The notes under the pieces were generated by a model. That model did no database searches, was not told the origin of the DNA, and worked only from the letters and a program-made list of their open reading frames with translations. Of a stretch of 64,000 bases of DNA, positions 34,893-46,016 are shown in pieces. Origin of the DNA: Pedobacter cryophilus (lineage in GTDB: Bacteria; Bacteroidota; Bacteroidia; Sphingobacteriales; Sphingobacteriaceae); NCBI RefSeq assembly GCF_005116455.1, contig NZ_SWBP01000003.1, forward strand, positions 463,535-527,534. The letters run 5' to 3'. The position numbers and the translations under genes are program-made. Each line of letters opens with the position of its first letter. Position 1 is the first letter of the stretch.

Positions 34893-35956
34893 ACTCCATA
34901 GAAAGCAATAATTACACTATATATTTTGATAATAGCTTACAAAGCTTAACTGATTTATTGGCTGAAAGAAACTATTCTAAAATATTTATTCTGACAGATG
35001 AGTTAACTGGCGAACATTGTTTACCCGTTTTACAAGCTAAATTACCAGATTTAACCGAATTCGACATTATAGAAGTGCCTAATGGCGAAGAAAATAAAAC
35101 CATTGATTTTTGCATAGGAATTTGGCGAATGTTGCTGGATTTTGAAGCTGATAGAAGCGCTTTATTAATTAATTTAGGTGGTGGAGTAGTGACTGATATG
35201 GGAAGTTTTGCCGCTTCTACTTTTAAAAGAGGAATAGATTTTTTACAAATTCCAACCACTTTACTTTCTCAGGTTGATGCTTCTGTTGGCGGAAAAACAG
35301 GTATAGATATGGAAAATGTGAAAAACGTGATTGGTACGTTTGCACAACCCCAAGCTGTAATTATTGCCACAGATTTCTTAAAAACACTTTCAGACCGACA
35401 AATTACTTCTGGCTTTGCCGAGGTCATTAAACACGGAATTATTGCTGATGCAGATTTCTTTCAAGAGATTATTCAATTAGAAAATGCTCGTGAAATATCT
35501 GAAGATCAAATACAAAAATCTATAGCCATTAAAAATAAGGTTGTATTAGAAGATCCTTTTGAAAAAGGAATCAGAAAAACCTTAAATTATGGTCATACCA
35601 TTGGTCATGCCATAGAATCATGGTCGTTAAGTAACGAGAAAAATTCTCTTTTACATGGCGAAGCTATTGCCATTGGAATGATTTGCGAAGCTTACTTAGC
35701 TAAAGAATTAATTGGTTTACCCGAAACTGATTTAGAAGCTATTAGTGCTGCTTTCTTAAAGTATTTTGATCATTATAAAATGAAACAAGGTATTGATGAG
35801 CAACTGCTAGAAATCATGAAACAAGACAAGAAAAACACATCTGGAAACATCAATTTCTCTTTACCTAATAAAATTGGCAACTGCCAAATTAATTTGTTGG
35901 TTGATAACAATTTGATTAAAGAAAGTTTAGAGTTTTATAGAAATCTAGAGTTTTAG
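34889..35956 (+). CDS. aroB: 3-dehydroquinate synthase
   Basis: The 355-residue protein has the AroB pattern: NAD-binding LINLGGGVVTDMGSFAA, PTTLLSQVDASVGGKTGID, GFAEVIKHGII and the zinc-ligand segment KTLNYGHTIGHAIES (His residues), plus the later LLHGEAIAIGM. It converts DAHP to 3-dehydroquinate, the second step of the shikimate pathway. It lies 3.7 kb from the other aromatic genes and is paired with an S4 protein instead. A hairpin-bearing repeat follows. Confidence 0.95.
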   Translation: MNSIESNNYTIYFDNSLQSLTDLLAERNYSKIFILTDELTGEHCLPVLQAKLPDLTEFDIIEVPNGEENKTIDFCIGIWRMLLDFEADRSALLINLGGGVVTDMGSFAASTFKRGIDFLQIPTTLLSQVDASVGGKTGIDMENVKNVIGTFAQPQAVIIATDFLKTLSDRQITSGFAEVIKHGIIADADFFQEIIQLENAREISEDQIQKSIAIKNKVVLEDPFEKGIRKTLNYGHTIGHAIESWSLSNEKNSLLHGEAIAIGMICEAYLAKELIGLPETDLEAISAAFLKYFDHYKMKQGIDEQLLEIMKQDKKNTSGNINFSLPNKIGNCQINLLVDNNLIKESLEFYRNLEF

Positions 35957-39439: not shown

Positions 39440-39469
39440 TTGTAGGTTAATGATAAGTGTGTACATTTG
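39440..39469 (+). promoter_or_regulatory. Consensus Bacteroidota promoter of the aromatic amino acid operon
   Basis: TTG at 39440-39442 and TACATTTG at 39462-39469 are separated by 19 bases, the preferred spacing for the Bacteroidota primary sigma factor. Transcription would start near 39475, giving a leader of about 140 bases before pheA. Confidence 0.8.
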
Positions 39470-39486
39470 ACAACAAGAAAACAAAA

Positions 39487-39537
39487 ATGAAATTAAACAC
39501 TACATATTACTTCGGTTACTTTTATTATAAAAAATAA
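39487..39537 (+). CDS. Tyr/Phe-rich 16-residue leader peptide of the pheA operon attenuator
   Basis: The peptide reads MKLNTTYYFGYFYYKK. Seven of eight consecutive residues (7-14) are Tyr or Phe: five Tyr and two Phe, with one Gly. It sits between a consensus promoter and a strong terminator, directly upstream of prephenate dehydratase. The stop codon (39535-39537) is followed by GCCGGG (39540-39545), which can pair with the 5' arm of the terminator. A ribosome that finishes the peptide would cover that segment and allow termination. A ribosome stalled at uncharged Tyr or Phe codons would leave it free to block the terminator. Confidence 0.88.
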   Translation: MKLNTTYYFGYFYYKK

Positions 39538-39539
39538 GA

Positions 39540-39606
39540 GCCGGGGATTTATGTTGTAAAATATAAAAGATTAACGAACCCGGCCCAACAGGCCGGGTTT
39601 TTTTGT
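39540..39606 (+). terminator. Attenuator: antiterminator arm and Rho-independent terminator before pheA
   Basis: The terminator is AACCCGGCC/GGCCGGGTT (39577-39585 with 39591-39599, 9 bp, CAACA loop) followed by seven T. GCCGGG at 39540-39545 is complementary to CCCGGC at 39579-39584 and forms the competing antiterminator. The terminator ends 8 bases before the pheA ATG, so all operon expression must pass it. Confidence 0.88.
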
Positions 39607-39614
39607 ATAAAAAA

Positions 39615-40445
39615 ATGGAAATAAAAAAAAGAGTTGCCATTCAAGGAATTAGAGCTTCATTTCACGAAGAAGCTGCTTTTAAATTTTTTGGAGAGGATAT
39701 AGAAACCATAGAATGCAATTCTTTTAAACAAACTTTTCAAAAATTAGAACAACAAGAAGCTGATTTTGTGGTAATGGCTATAGAAAATAGTATTGCCGGC
39801 AGCTTATTACCCAATTACACTTTACTAAGGGAATATAATTTCCCTGTTATTGGCGAGGTATATTTACCTATCCAACTTCATTTGATGGCTTTACCCGGAG
39901 TAAAGTTTGAGGACATTAAAACAGTAACCTCACACCCTATTGCGATACGCCAGTGTAATGATTTTTTAGATGAATTTCCACATTTAAAAGTGGTTGAAAG
40001 TAGCGATACCGCAGCCTGCGCTAAAAAAATAAAAGAAGAGCAATTAACTGATACCGTTGCCATTGCCAACACTTTAGCCGCTAAACTTTATGGTTTAGAA
40101 ATTCTGGAGAGAAGAATAGAATCAAACAAAAAAAATTATACCCGTTTTTTAATCTTAACAGATAAACAAACGGAGGTAGAAAATTTCAATAAAGCTTCAT
40201 TATGTTTTCAAGTTACAAATGATGCAGGCTCTTTAGTTAAAGTATTAAATATTTTAGCCGAGTTAGATATCAATATGAGTAAAGTTCAATCTATGCCCGT
40301 TTTAGGTAGAAGAAACGAATACAACTTTTATGTTGACATAGAATGGAACGACACCAAAAATTACGAAGATGCCATCCGTAGAATTGTAAAGCACACTATC
40401 AACTTTAGCATCATGGGCGAATATGTAAAGAATGATAAGGTTTAA
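39615..40445 (+). CDS. pheA: Prephenate dehydratase
   Basis: The 276-residue protein has the PDT catalytic domain (about 1-180): VAIQGIRASFHEEAAFKFFG, FVVMAIENSIAGSL, SHPIAIRQCNDFL and the ESNKKNYTRFLIL segment with catalytic Thr. A regulatory ACT domain follows (about 192-270, LCFQVTNDAGSLVKVLNILA). It converts prephenate to phenylpyruvate; the ACT domain usually gives feedback inhibition by Phe. I start at ATG 39615; a TTG at 39603 lies inside the attenuator T-run and is not credible. Expression is controlled by the Tyr/Phe leader upstream. Confidence 0.93.
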   Translation: MEIKKRVAIQGIRASFHEEAAFKFFGEDIETIECNSFKQTFQKLEQQEADFVVMAIENSIAGSLLPNYTLLREYNFPVIGEVYLPIQLHLMALPGVKFEDIKTVTSHPIAIRQCNDFLDEFPHLKVVESSDTAACAKKIKEEQLTDTVAIANTLAAKLYGLEILERRIESNKKNYTRFLILTDKQTEVENFNKASLCFQVTNDAGSLVKVLNILAELDINMSKVQSMPVLGRRNEYNFYVDIEWNDTKNYEDAIRRIVKHTINFSIMGEYVKNDKV

Positions 40446-40575: not shown

Positions 40576-41679
40576 ATGAAACTAAATCTAAATATACAAC
40601 CATTAAGTAGCTGGGTTAAAGTAACTCATGAGCCACTTATTATTTCTGGCCCATGTAGTGCCGAAACCGAAGAGCAATTAGTAGCCACCGCTCATTTATT
40701 AAAAGCTACCGGAAAAGTAAGCGTTTTAAGAGCCGGAATATGGAAACCAAGAACTCGCCCAGGAGAGTTTGAAGGTATTGGAAGTATTGGTTTGCAATGG
40801 TTAAACAGAGCTAAGCAAGAAACCGGTTTGCCTATTGCGGTTGAAGTTGCTACTGCAAAACATGTGGAAGAAGCCTTAGCTGCTGGTGTTGATATTCTTT
40901 GGATTGGTGCAAGATCTACCGTAAACCCGTTTACAGTACAAGAAATTGCTGACGCTTTAAAAGGTGTTGATATCCCGGTAATGGTTAAAAACCCAATTAA
41001 TCCTGATCTTTCTTTATGGATTGGTGCTTTAGAGCGTATTAACCAAGCTGGTATTACTAAATTGGCAGCTATTCACAGAGGATTTTCTTCTTTTGAAAAA
41101 TCTGCTTTTAGAAATGAGCCAATGTGGGATTTAGCCATCAGCTTAAAAACTTTAGTTCCTGATTTGCCTATTATTAATGATCCGAGTCATATTTGTGGAA
41201 ATAGAGAATTATTACCTTTCATTTCTCAAAAAGCATTAGATTTAGATATGCAAGGCTTAATGATTGAATCTCACATAGATCCTTCTGTAGCCTGGACAGA
41301 TGCTAAGCAACAAGTTACCCCATCCGCTTTAAGCGAAATGATTGACGGTTTTGTTTTACGTAAACCCGAATCTAAAAACCCAGAATTTACTGATAAACTG
41401 GCTTCTTTAAGAGAAAAAATTGACAAGCTTGATGATCAGATTTTTACAAAATTAGGCGAGAGAATGAAAATTGTTGAGCAAATTGGAGAATTCAAAAGAG
41501 ATAATGATGTGACCATTCTTCAGGTTTCTAGATGGGATGAAATTTTACATAAAAGAACAGCTTACGGTTCTGTTTTAAAACTAGAAAAAGAGTTTACAGA
41601 AAAAATTCTGGAATTAATTCACAGCGAATCTATCCGCAAACAAACAGCAATTATGAATACTAAAGCTACATTAAGCTAA
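40576..41679 (+). CDS. Bifunctional DAHP synthase (KDPS-type) and chorismate mutase
   Basis: The 367-residue protein has two parts. Residues about 1-265 form an AroA-beta/KDO8P-synthase-like TIM barrel (LIISGPCSAETEEQ, RAGIWKPRTRPGEFEG, MVKNPINPD, DPSHICGNREL). Residues about 275-360 form an AroQ chorismate mutase helix bundle (LREKIDKLDDQIFTKLGERM). It catalyses the first step of the shikimate pathway and also the branch step from chorismate to prephenate. This fusion is normal in Bacteroidota. Its stop overlaps the aroA start by one base. It would be co-controlled by the Tyr/Phe attenuator. Confidence 0.93.
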   Translation: MKLNLNIQPLSSWVKVTHEPLIISGPCSAETEEQLVATAHLLKATGKVSVLRAGIWKPRTRPGEFEGIGSIGLQWLNRAKQETGLPIAVEVATAKHVEEALAAGVDILWIGARSTVNPFTVQEIADALKGVDIPVMVKNPINPDLSLWIGALERINQAGITKLAAIHRGFSSFEKSAFRNEPMWDLAISLKTLVPDLPIINDPSHICGNRELLPFISQKALDLDMQGLMIESHIDPSVAWTDAKQQVTPSALSEMIDGFVLRKPESKNPEFTDKLASLREKIDKLDDQIFTKLGERMKIVEQIGEFKRDNDVTILQVSRWDEILHKRTAYGSVLKLEKEFTEKILELIHSESIRKQTAIMNTKATLS

Positions 41680-42926
41680 TGTCTGCTGCTATTGTTATAA
41701 AGAAATCAGATTTTAAAGAAGAGCAGGTTATTAATTTAACCGGCTCTAAAAGCGAAAGTAACAGAGCGCTTATTCTATCGGCTTTGAGCCAAGGAAAAGT
41801 GATGATCAATAATCTTTCGTCTGCTGCTGATACGGTGACCCTGAATAAAATTTTAACTCAGGATAGGGAATCTAAATCTGATAAAAAAGTAATTAACGTT
41901 GGGCCAGCGGGTACTGCCATGCGTTTTTTAACCGCCTATTTTTCTTTTAAAGGAGAGCAAGTAGAGATTACCGGTTCTGACAGGATGAAGCAGCGCCCAA
42001 TTGGCACCTTAGTAAATGCTTTAACCAATTTAGGAGCCGATCTATCTTATCTAGAAACCGACGGCTTCCCTCCTGTTTTTATTAACGGTCCTTTTGAGCA
42101 AAAAAACCTTCGTGTTGCCATTAGAGGAGACATTAGTTCTCAATTTTTAACCGCTTTGCTTTTATTAGCCAGTTCGCTGCCAAAAGGCTTAGAATTAGAA
42201 ATTATTGATGAATTAACTTCAAAACCTTATGTAGACATGACTTTGGCCATGTTGGCACAATGCGGCATAAACCATACTTGGGAGAACGATATTATTTCTA
42301 TTCAACCTCAGGAATTTAGACCTACAACGCTTACTATAGAACCAGATTGGAGTGCCGCTTCTTATTGGTACAGTGTGGCAGCTTTAGCAGAAAATGCTAA
42401 AATTCATCTTCCAAACCTTAAAAAAGATAGTTTACAAGGTGATAGCGCTGTTGCTGGAATCATGACTTTATTTGGAGTGCATACCACTTTTGAGCAAGAC
42501 GGAATTGTGATTGAGAAAATTCATCAAGAAATTAAACCTCAGTTATTAGATTTTAGGGAATGTCCCGATTTGGCTCAAACTGTTATTGTTTGCGCTGCTA
42601 TTTTAGGAAAAGAGTTTAGTTTTACAGGCTTAGAAACCTTAAAAATTAAAGAAACCGATCGTATTTTTGCCCTACAAACAGAGCTAGCAAAAATTGGCGT
42701 AAAATTAATTGAAACACAAGCAGACATTTATCAGTTAGATTGTTTGGATATGGTTATACCCGAAGAAATTAGCATTACAACCTACGAAGATCATAGAATG
42801 GCAATGGCTTTTGCACCTTTGGCAATGATTATTGGGGAAGTAAAAATAGAAGAATCCCAAGTAGTAGAAAAATCGTACCCACATTTTTGGGAAGATTTTA
42901 AAAAGATAGGGTTTTCAATTAAGTAA
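41679..42926 (+). CDS. aroA: 3-phosphoshikimate 1-carboxyvinyltransferase (EPSP synthase)
   Basis: The 415-residue protein carries the EPSP synthase motifs: LTGSKSESNRALILSALS (phosphoenolpyruvate-binding Lys), GPAGTAMRFLTAYFS, RGDISSQFLTALLLLA, CPDLAQTVIVCAA and IKETDRI, with YEDHRMAMAFA near the end. It adds enolpyruvate to shikimate 3-phosphate. SGPAGT-type residues match class I enzymes, with a divergent sequence as usual in Bacteroidota. The gene is translationally coupled to the DAHP synthase gene. Confidence 0.93.
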   Translation: MSAAIVIKKSDFKEEQVINLTGSKSESNRALILSALSQGKVMINNLSSAADTVTLNKILTQDRESKSDKKVINVGPAGTAMRFLTAYFSFKGEQVEITGSDRMKQRPIGTLVNALTNLGADLSYLETDGFPPVFINGPFEQKNLRVAIRGDISSQFLTALLLLASSLPKGLELEIIDELTSKPYVDMTLAMLAQCGINHTWENDIISIQPQEFRPTTLTIEPDWSAASYWYSVAALAENAKIHLPNLKKDSLQGDSAVAGIMTLFGVHTTFEQDGIVIEKIHQEIKPQLLDFRECPDLAQTVIVCAAILGKEFSFTGLETLKIKETDRIFALQTELAKIGVKLIETQADIYQLDCLDMVIPEEISITTYEDHRMAMAFAPLAMIIGEVKIEESQVVEKSYPHFWEDFKKIGFSIK

Positions 42927-43139: not shown

Positions 43140-44234
43140 ATGGCAGGAAATTCCTTCGGACAAATATTTAAAATCACCACATTTGGAGAATCTCATGGCG
43201 CAGCCATAGGTGTAATTATTGATGGCTGTCCTTCTAATATCTCTATAGATTTAGATTTCATTCAGGATGAGTTAGATAAACGCAAACCTGGTCAGTCTAA
43301 AATCACCACACAACGCAAAGAGTCAGATACTTTTCAAATTTTATCCGGTGTTTTTGAAGGTAAAACAACAGGAACTCCAATTGCTATTATTATTCCAAAC
43401 GAAGATCAGAAATCAAAAGATTATGATCATAATAAAGATACTTTTCGCCCTTCACATGCTGATTATACCTACCAAGCTAAATATGGGATAAGAGATCACA
43501 GAGGTGGAGGCCGTTCTTCGGCTCGTGAAACTGCGGCAAGAGTAGCAGCTGGCGCCATTGCAAAATTATTTCTTCAACAAAAAGGAATTGAAGTTTTAGC
43601 CCATGTAAGTAGCGTTGGAAAAATAGATGCCCCAGAAATTACCATTAATTCGGCAAAAGAATTTATCAATTTAAGAGAAGCAAATATTGTAAGATGTGCT
43701 GATGCGGCCGTAGCCGTAGAAATGATTGAATTGATTGACGGTATCCGTAAAGAAGGTGATACCGTAGGCGGCAAAATATCTTGTTATATTAAAAATTGCC
43801 CTGTGGGATTAGGTGAGCCTGTTTTTGATAAGCTTCACGCTGATTTAGGAAAAGCTATGTTGAGCATTAATGCCGTACATGGTTTTGATTATGGTTCTGG
43901 CTTTGATGGTTCAACCATGCGAGGTTCTCAACATAATGATATTTTTTCATCTGATGAAAACGGAAAAATCTCTACTAAAACCAATTTTTCTGGTGGTGTA
44001 CAAGGTGGTATTTCTAACGGAATGGACATTAACTTTAGAGTGGCTTTTAAACCCGTTGCTACCATTATGAGCAACCAAGAAACGGTAAATAAAGATGGTG
44101 AAGCGGCAGAAATTAAAGGCAAGGGCAGACATGATCCTTGTGTGGTACCAAGAGCAGTTGCCATTGTAGAGGCTATGGCTGCTTTGGTAATTATAGATCA
44201 CTATTTAAGAAACCAGTTGTATCAAAATTCATAA
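43140..44234 (+). CDS. aroC: Chorismate synthase
   Basis: The 364-residue protein matches Aro[20 protein letters not shown] at the start (catalytic His), then [19 protein letters not shown] [16 protein letters not shown] and [19 protein letters not shown]. The FMN-binding [10 protein letters not shown] and [17 protein letters not shown] complete it. It makes chorismate from EPSP using reduced FMN. A repeat-filled gap of 213 bases separates it from aroA, so it may have additional control, but it is probably still in the attenuated operon. Two similar hairpins follow it. Confidence 0.95.
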
Positions 44235-44254: not shown

Positions 44255-44285
44255 ATGGTCTGTGTCTTCACAGACCATTTTTATT
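44255..44285 (+). terminator. First of two twin hairpins after aroC
   Basis: ATGGTCTGTG/CACAGACCAT (44255-44264 with 44269-44278) is a 10-bp stem with a 4-base loop, followed by TTTTTATTTTG. Confidence 0.85.
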
Positions 44286-44352: not shown

Positions 44353-44383
44353 ATGGTCTGTGTCCTCACAGACCATTTTTTTG
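44353..44383 (+). terminator. Second twin hairpin after aroC
   Basis: The same 10-bp stem recurs at 44353-44362 with 44367-44376, followed by seven T. The sequence between the copies (CGATCTATGAGTACACAGACC and its relative) is also duplicated, so a unit of about 98 bases has been tandemly copied. Confidence 0.85.
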
Positions 44384-45819: not shown

Positions 45820-45933
45820 TTAAATAAAAAAAATTCACTAACGCAAATCTTGAGAAGCAATTCAATAGCTGGAAAAAACTTGTGCTTTTTTATGGATTTA
45901 AATTTTATAGTATTAAATACCCATTACAAGGTT

Positions 45934-46016
45934 TTGCGTTAGGGATTGGAACGGCATCTTTTTTGGCTTTTTCTGCCAAAAAAATATAGTGTAAAGCCCG
46001 CCCGAACGCCCAAATA
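45934..46016. repeat. Dispersed hairpin repeat, copy 1 (CGGCATC ... AACGCCCAAATA type)
   Basis: The element reads GCGTTAGGG, then ACGGCATC, a hairpin TTTTTTGGC/GCCAAAAAA, ATATAG, and finally CCCGCCCGAACGCCCAAATA. Copies of the same plan lie at 55107-55182 (same orientation) and 59519-59618 (opposite). Together with the palindrome at 45774 it makes up the recognisable content of the gene-free stretch 45656-46074. Confidence 0.75.

Follow-up and report, generated by a model that had tools for sequence, protein, structure and literature searches.

The region at 39440-39615 (+ strand) of the stretch of Pedobacter cryophilus DNA analyzed here (64,000 nucleotides, hereafter the window) very probably acts as a transcription attenuator for pheA, a DAHP synthase fused to chorismate mutase, aroA and aroC. 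Judged from its sequence, it likely senses the charging levels of tRNA-Tyr and tRNA-Phe by way of a translated, Tyr/Phe-rich leader peptide. The leader, the segment behind it that we call arm 2, the terminator, and the complementarity and conservation of these parts are directly visible in the DNA. Sequence and modelling together indicate the combination that defines ribosome-mediated attenuators, namely an ORF with codons for the products of the operon, an intrinsic terminator, a mutually exclusive antiterminator and a fitting ribosome geometry. The features of the region and the genes behind it are as follows.

39440-39442, + strand: putative promoter element TTG, -33-type, read from the sequence
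39462-39469, + strand: putative promoter element TACATTTG (TAnnTTTG), -7-type, 19 nt after TTG
39487 (ATG) to 39537 (TAA), + strand: leader ORF MKLNTTYYFGYFYYKK of 16 codons, read from the sequence; an aromatic-rich leader is kept in relatives
39505-39528, + strand: Tyr/Phe control codons, leader codons 7-14, residues YYFGYFYY
39502-39506, + strand: arm 1 of the 1:2 hairpin, ACATA, from the fold and pair counts
39550-39554, + strand: 3' side of the 1:2 hairpin, TATGT, from the fold and pair counts
39540-39545, + strand: arm 2, GCCGGG, 5' side of the antiterminator, exact complement of 39579-39584
39577-39585, + strand: arm 3 of the terminator, AACCCGGCC, pairs with arm 4
39579-39584, + strand: CCCGGC, the arm 3 bases common to terminator and antiterminator, from the sequence and stem comparison
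39586-39590, + strand: terminator loop CAACA, read from the sequence
39591-39599, + strand: arm 4 of the terminator, GGCCGGGTT, pairs with arm 3
39577-39599, + strand: terminator hairpin overall, from the terminator scan; helix kept in relatives
39598-39604, + strand: T run of the terminator, ten bases 5' of the pheA start
39615-40445, + strand: pheA, prephenate dehydratase (PF00800 over cut-off; PRK11898 at 204.1 bits, just under the cut-off of 219)
40576-41679, + strand: DAHP synthase fused to chorismate mutase (PF00793 over cut-off; NCBIfam matches below curated cut-offs)
41679-42926, + strand: aroA, EPSP synthase (TIGR01356 over cut-off)
43140-44234, + strand: aroC, chorismate synthase (TIGR00033 over cut-off)

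A preliminary description of this DNA had placed a promoter of the form TTG-19-TACATTTG here, and direct reading finds it where it was claimed. We take the combination of a -33-type TTG and a -7-type TAnnTTTG to be the Bacteroidota promoter motif, and a Bacteroidota-type promoter at 39440-39469 is predicted from this motif and its conservation: of 116 leaders, 69 have TAnnTTTG in the 50 nt ahead of their start, vs 14 of 733 control segments taken from farther 5'. A sigma-70 scan of the window, which covers the E. coli type only, did not return this promoter. The 16-codon peptide with seven Tyr or Phe among residues 7-14 is present as described (five Tyr, two Phe and one Gly), and so is GCCGGG right after its stop codon, with GCCGGGG (39540-39546) beginning two bases 3' of that codon. 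The complementarity between 39540-39545 and 39579-39584, proposed as the antiterminator, is exact. A 9-bp GC terminator with seven T had also been described; the stem and the T run are there, but the stem includes two A-U pairs besides seven G-C, and the first two T of the run belong to it. This terminator serves no upstream gene because no + strand gene ends just 5' of it; the upstream neighbors lie on the opposite strand, and the nearest + strand gene upstream is aroB, ending at 35956. Folding of 39475-39615 gave a z-score of -4.92, with none of 200 shuffles equally stable, and produced the structure that had been proposed. The minimum-energy fold contains the terminator together with the 1:2 hairpin (39502-39506 with 39550-39554), which was absent from the earlier reading.

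Upstream regions of pheA were searched by a rule calling for an ORF, 9-45 codons long, in which six or more of ten residues are Phe, Tyr or Trp, and behind it a GC hairpin and a T run. The regions came from 30 same-family loci (window included), 10 further matches of that search, 80 named loci, and 40 of the 128 matched genomes from a phylum sample of 148. The rule picked out 121 of these 160 regions, 117 of the 121 leaders being distinct in a sample that is tilted to relatives and includes near-duplicates; none of the 523 regions in front of other genes at these loci fitted the rule, nor did any of 363 dinucleotide shuffles. A chance short ORF followed by an ordinary terminator in AT-rich intergenic DNA could be imagined here, the region and the Phe and Tyr codons being AT-rich, but these controls leave it a vanishingly small probability and refute it unless the rule is biased. 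Conservation of the Tyr/Phe peptide in close relatives, on which the preliminary description had staked its reading, extends to all 30 same-family loci and to 65 of the 80 named loci, and the element was also found at 4 of the 10 further matches. The phylum sample contributed 21 of 27 same-class regions and 1 of 13 other-class regions. A predicted dual Tyr/Phe element before pheA is spread through much of the class Bacteroidia. The 39 pheA genes at which the rule found nothing include some from the same nominal genus (L037-L039). Seven of these misses show an aromatic leader by eye, combined with a weaker leader or terminator in L036, L182, L183 and L190 and without a called terminator in L076, L087 and L088. 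Genomes G004, G006 and G016, of the same nominal genus, carry a different pheA, 43-44% identical, without the leader element.

At least two Tyr and at least two Phe are present in all 117 distinct leaders. Selection appears to act on the aromatic codons of the leader: its nucleotides differ widely although the aromatic content is kept, and the aromatic contexts vary, with TYYFGYFYF, RFYFYFF and FYFYFYFFY among them. The last aromatic codon ends 6-10 nt 5' of the antiterminator duplex in 92 of 117 leaders, measured to the duplex start with one flanking base included. The leader stop falls before arm 2 in 13 of 117 (window among them), and in most leaders the frame continues through arm 2. It could be argued that the peptide works as a small trans-acting protein, or that the terminated leader RNA of about 130 nt, which would be expected to be made, acts as a small RNA. 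We regard this as very unlikely indeed, since nothing of the peptide sequence except the aromatic content is conserved and the position of the leader stop codon shifts between species. One pheA upstream region (L186, G094) has a tandem pair of aromatic leader-terminator modules, both of them complete (MAYRSAYYFYFFCFFSSCRG and MGYTYYYFFSLMDHRRLWVV), and that of L191 looks double too, by eye.

The RNA stems are also kept among relatives, as assessed with 50 Sphingobacteriaceae leaders and 500 shuffles. The terminator helix is 99.1% paired, with double-sided changes in five of its nine pairs and 22 double-sided cells, a count reached by none of the shuffles. The antiterminator helix is 95.5% paired vs at most 51.8% when slid; it has three double-sided pairs, and its count of double-sided cells was reached by 23 of the 500 shuffles. 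For the 1:2 stem, which is 91.9% paired, the corresponding count was reached by 11 of 500, and its outer pair is G-C in 17, A-U in 13 and broken in 13 sequences. Covariation in the antiterminator and the 1:2 stem is modest. Duplex energies were -15.6 kcal/mol for the own arms of 2:3 vs -13.1 kcal/mol after re-pairing between species, and -18.2 vs -13.7 kcal/mol for 1:2, with 0 of 2000 permutations in either case, a result inflated by the relatedness of the species.

We propose that a shortage of Tyr or Phe would stall the ribosome on the aromatic codons of the leader, so that arm 2 (39540-39545) would be exposed and could pair with arm 3 (39579-39584); this pairing would preclude the terminator and the operon genes would be transcribed. 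With ample Tyr and Phe, translation would run to the stop codon (39535-39537), where the ribosome would mask arm 2 and so let arms 3 and 4 form the terminator. For the modelling of these states, an assumed ribosome footprint kept every base from pairing as far as 12 nt beyond the first base of the A site, and arm 4 was left off as still to be transcribed. The antiterminator is predicted for 117 of 117 leaders when the ribosome sits on the first aromatic codon or on the last one. When it sits on the stop codon, the number falls to 7 of 117, in line with the earlier suggestion that a ribosome there covers arm 2. Without a ribosome and before arm 4 is made, the antiterminator is predicted to win at equilibrium in 109 of 117 leaders, window included, so that default termination through the 1:2 hairpin is not predicted under equilibrium conditions and the mechanism would need kinetics. 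In the full transcript with a stalled ribosome, the terminator is still predicted to be the more stable structure in 109 of 117, as is usual for attenuators. The measure of a helix of at least five pairs is a loose one, because a control with shuffled spacers reached it in 346 of 585 cases.

The match between leader codons and operon products, on similar frames, constitutes the strongest sequence evidence for an attenuation mechanism. The same genome (G000) has a Thr-rich leader, MTFYTTYTTTTTTLKA, before thrA (L236), a Leu/Ile-rich leader, MLFLLINLIIIIDLLMTSKKQKACLI, before ilv/leu genes (L238) and a Trp-Trp-Trp leader, MNNQTNTKKWWWHNKIVASVILFVS, before trpE (L239), each followed by a terminator. 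A leader with seven His, MKIILKTTHHHLHHHHCGVAL, precedes hisG (L237); no clear terminator was found after the His run on reading the sequence, and we therefore do not claim transcription attenuation at hisG. A covariance model built from pheA leaders, some rows of which come from the searched genomes, gave matches with E ≤ 0.001 in 89 of 101 genomes of the family, those in G212 and G254 being false. The matches concerned, two in G212 and one in G254 with E from 4e-4 to 6e-4, were rejected as they have no leader or biosynthetic gene. In the genus g14, which includes Pedobacter sp. Leaf194, five of nine genomes have another match to the model, at a Thr/Ile leader (e.g. MNFNTSIITTIIITTGINQRG) that is followed by a terminator (L218-L222 in G255, G191, G030, G261 and G237). 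The gene behind this leader begins alike in all five genomes, and the one tested is a bifunctional aspartate kinase/homoserine dehydrogenase (1035.7 bits vs 726). It is possible, and we offer it tentatively as an idea with less than even chances, that one ancient Bacteroidota attenuator scaffold serves as a modular sensor of amino acids, fitted with Tyr/Phe(/Trp) codons in front of pheA and with Thr/Ile codons in front of thrA. For Sphingobacteriaceae this would mean that a pooled aromatic-tRNA signal, dominated by tyrosine, governs the single DAHP synthase and thereby every aromatic amino acid and the cofactors derived from chorismate.

The terminator scan places the first + strand terminator-like site after pheA at 44255, behind aroC, and aroC is probably in the same transcription unit as pheA. 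Two nearly identical 10-bp terminator hairpins lie behind aroC, at 44255-44278 and 44353-44376, about 75 nt apart. The second PF00793 protein in the genome is a KDO8P synthase (388.4 bits vs a cut-off of 314) and no class II DAHP synthase was found in the genome, so the leader precedes the only DAHP synthase found there. The switch would thus set entry to the whole aromatic pathway, beyond the Phe branch. The Tyr bias of the leader had been linked to control of this shared step, and the link is consistent with the only DAHP synthase found being in the operon and with the lack of tyrA in the operon; the genome as a whole gave no match to a Cyclobacteriaceae tyrA (that of L093). All 14 Cyclobacteriaceae-type named loci are arranged as pheA, aminotransferase, tyrA and then DAHP synthase (one contig ends before the DAHP synthase). 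In all 53 Sphingobacteriaceae-type named loci DAHP synthase follows pheA, with aroA in 51 and aroC in 47, and neither an aminotransferase nor tyrA was found downstream of pheA within the stretch covered. These 53 include one record labelled Legionellaceae, a MAG (L042) whose Sphingobacteriaceae-type pheA locus with leader and operon is probably a mis-binned contig.

In the family with the pheA-DAHP synthase layout, 46 of 78 leaders have more Tyr than Phe, vs 6 of 39 elsewhere (Fisher p 9e-6, only indicative because the sequences are related). In our own reading, the leader may gauge the aromatic pool for an operon now feeding all of that pool. This contrast, and the five Tyr vs two Phe of the window leader, would also fit tyrosine as the only real signal, with the Phe codons as bystanders in an operon that has no tyrA and for which Tyr supply is the bottleneck. 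We consider that unlikely: at least two Phe are kept in every one of the 117 leaders, Phe outnumbers Tyr in 19 of the 78 leaders of the same family, and the first gene of the operon makes Phe. Joint sensing of Tyr and Phe remains our preferred reading. Trp occurs in 41 of 117 leaders and makes up 1.7% of leader residues, with 37 of 44 Trp inside the aromatic run; as a third signal it is suggestive but not general, and the window leader has none. Hydroxylation of Phe to Tyr was considered as the reason for the Tyr codons and dropped, because in 60 genomes hydroxylase and tyrA were not cleanly sorted with the leader, and several leader-bearing genomes among them have neither. The window genome itself encodes a 600-aa aromatic amino-acid hydroxylase (L145 in G000:C11; NF010657, 814.7 bits vs a cut-off of 346), which could make Tyr from Phe, and also a divergent 418-aa prephenate-dehydrogenase-like protein (L147 in G000:C9, about 192690-193944; PRK08655-type, 91 bits, far below the cut-off of 464). 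No acceptable aromatic leader with a terminator was found at the latter gene.

Leader-peptide attenuation is taught from Proteobacteria, and we know of no described case of Tyr being read by a leader peptide. If the proposed mechanism is true, Tyr is read in this way here, and these bacteria set the flow into aromatic biosynthesis by tRNA charging. Besides the Tyr/Phe element, the window genome carries a matched set of leaders for Thr, Leu/Ile, Trp and His. A 2010 survey states that, before its own case in Firmicutes, leader-peptide attenuation had not been shown outside Proteobacteria and Actinobacteria (PMC2965389). A putative attenuator is listed before pheA > hisHb > aroA-Ibeta-aroQ > tyrA of Bacteroides thetaiotaomicron, drawn from a terminator/antiterminator database; the listing names neither a leader peptide nor the amino acid sensed (PMC1173090, Table 7). 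It is likely the same element as the one described here, being in the same phylum and before the same first gene. In Flavobacterium psychrophilum, an expressed structured 5' region without an Rfam match has been reported before pheA and is kept in other Flavobacteriaceae genera; leader-peptide attenuation is suggested there for amino-acid operons in general, and the main text gives no pheA leader sequence (PMC9723704). Our search of the literature, mostly outside subscription journals and not covering the likeliest earlier survey, returned no description of a Tyr/Phe leader peptide before Bacteroidota pheA or of its class-wide spread.

Among the closest known counterparts is Phe_leader (RF01859), the E. 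coli pheL-pheA type, which likewise combines an aromatic-rich leader peptide with an exclusive antiterminator and terminator before pheA. The two have no shared sequence, the window scoring 26.0 bits vs a gathering score of 55. The E. coli peptide senses Phe alone, whereas the Pedobacter leader carries Tyr and Phe and its downstream unit includes DAHP synthase, aroA and aroC. A single leader reads more than one amino acid in the ilvGMEDA and thrABC operons of E. coli, whose products are branched; the pheA element resembles these in multi-amino-acid reading but is aromatic and in a different phylum. Bacteroid-trp (RF01692) is also a Bacteroidota leader-peptide RNA, but it belongs to the Trp operon, and the window scores 22 bits vs a gathering score of 49. 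No Rfam family rose above threshold for the pheA leader element in the window search. Ligand-binding RNAs, T-boxes and RNA-binding proteins control aromatic genes in other bacteria, and with a structured RNA upstream of pheA one of them might govern the terminator, the short ORF being incidental. This is very unlikely, as only tRNA and Flavo-1, and no T-box, match at gathering score in the window, the aromatic codon run is kept across lineages while a nucleotide aptamer is not, and the leaders of other operons match the products of those operons. The Flavo-1 RNA (RF01705) match lies at 45931-46007 of the window with a score of 49.2 bits.
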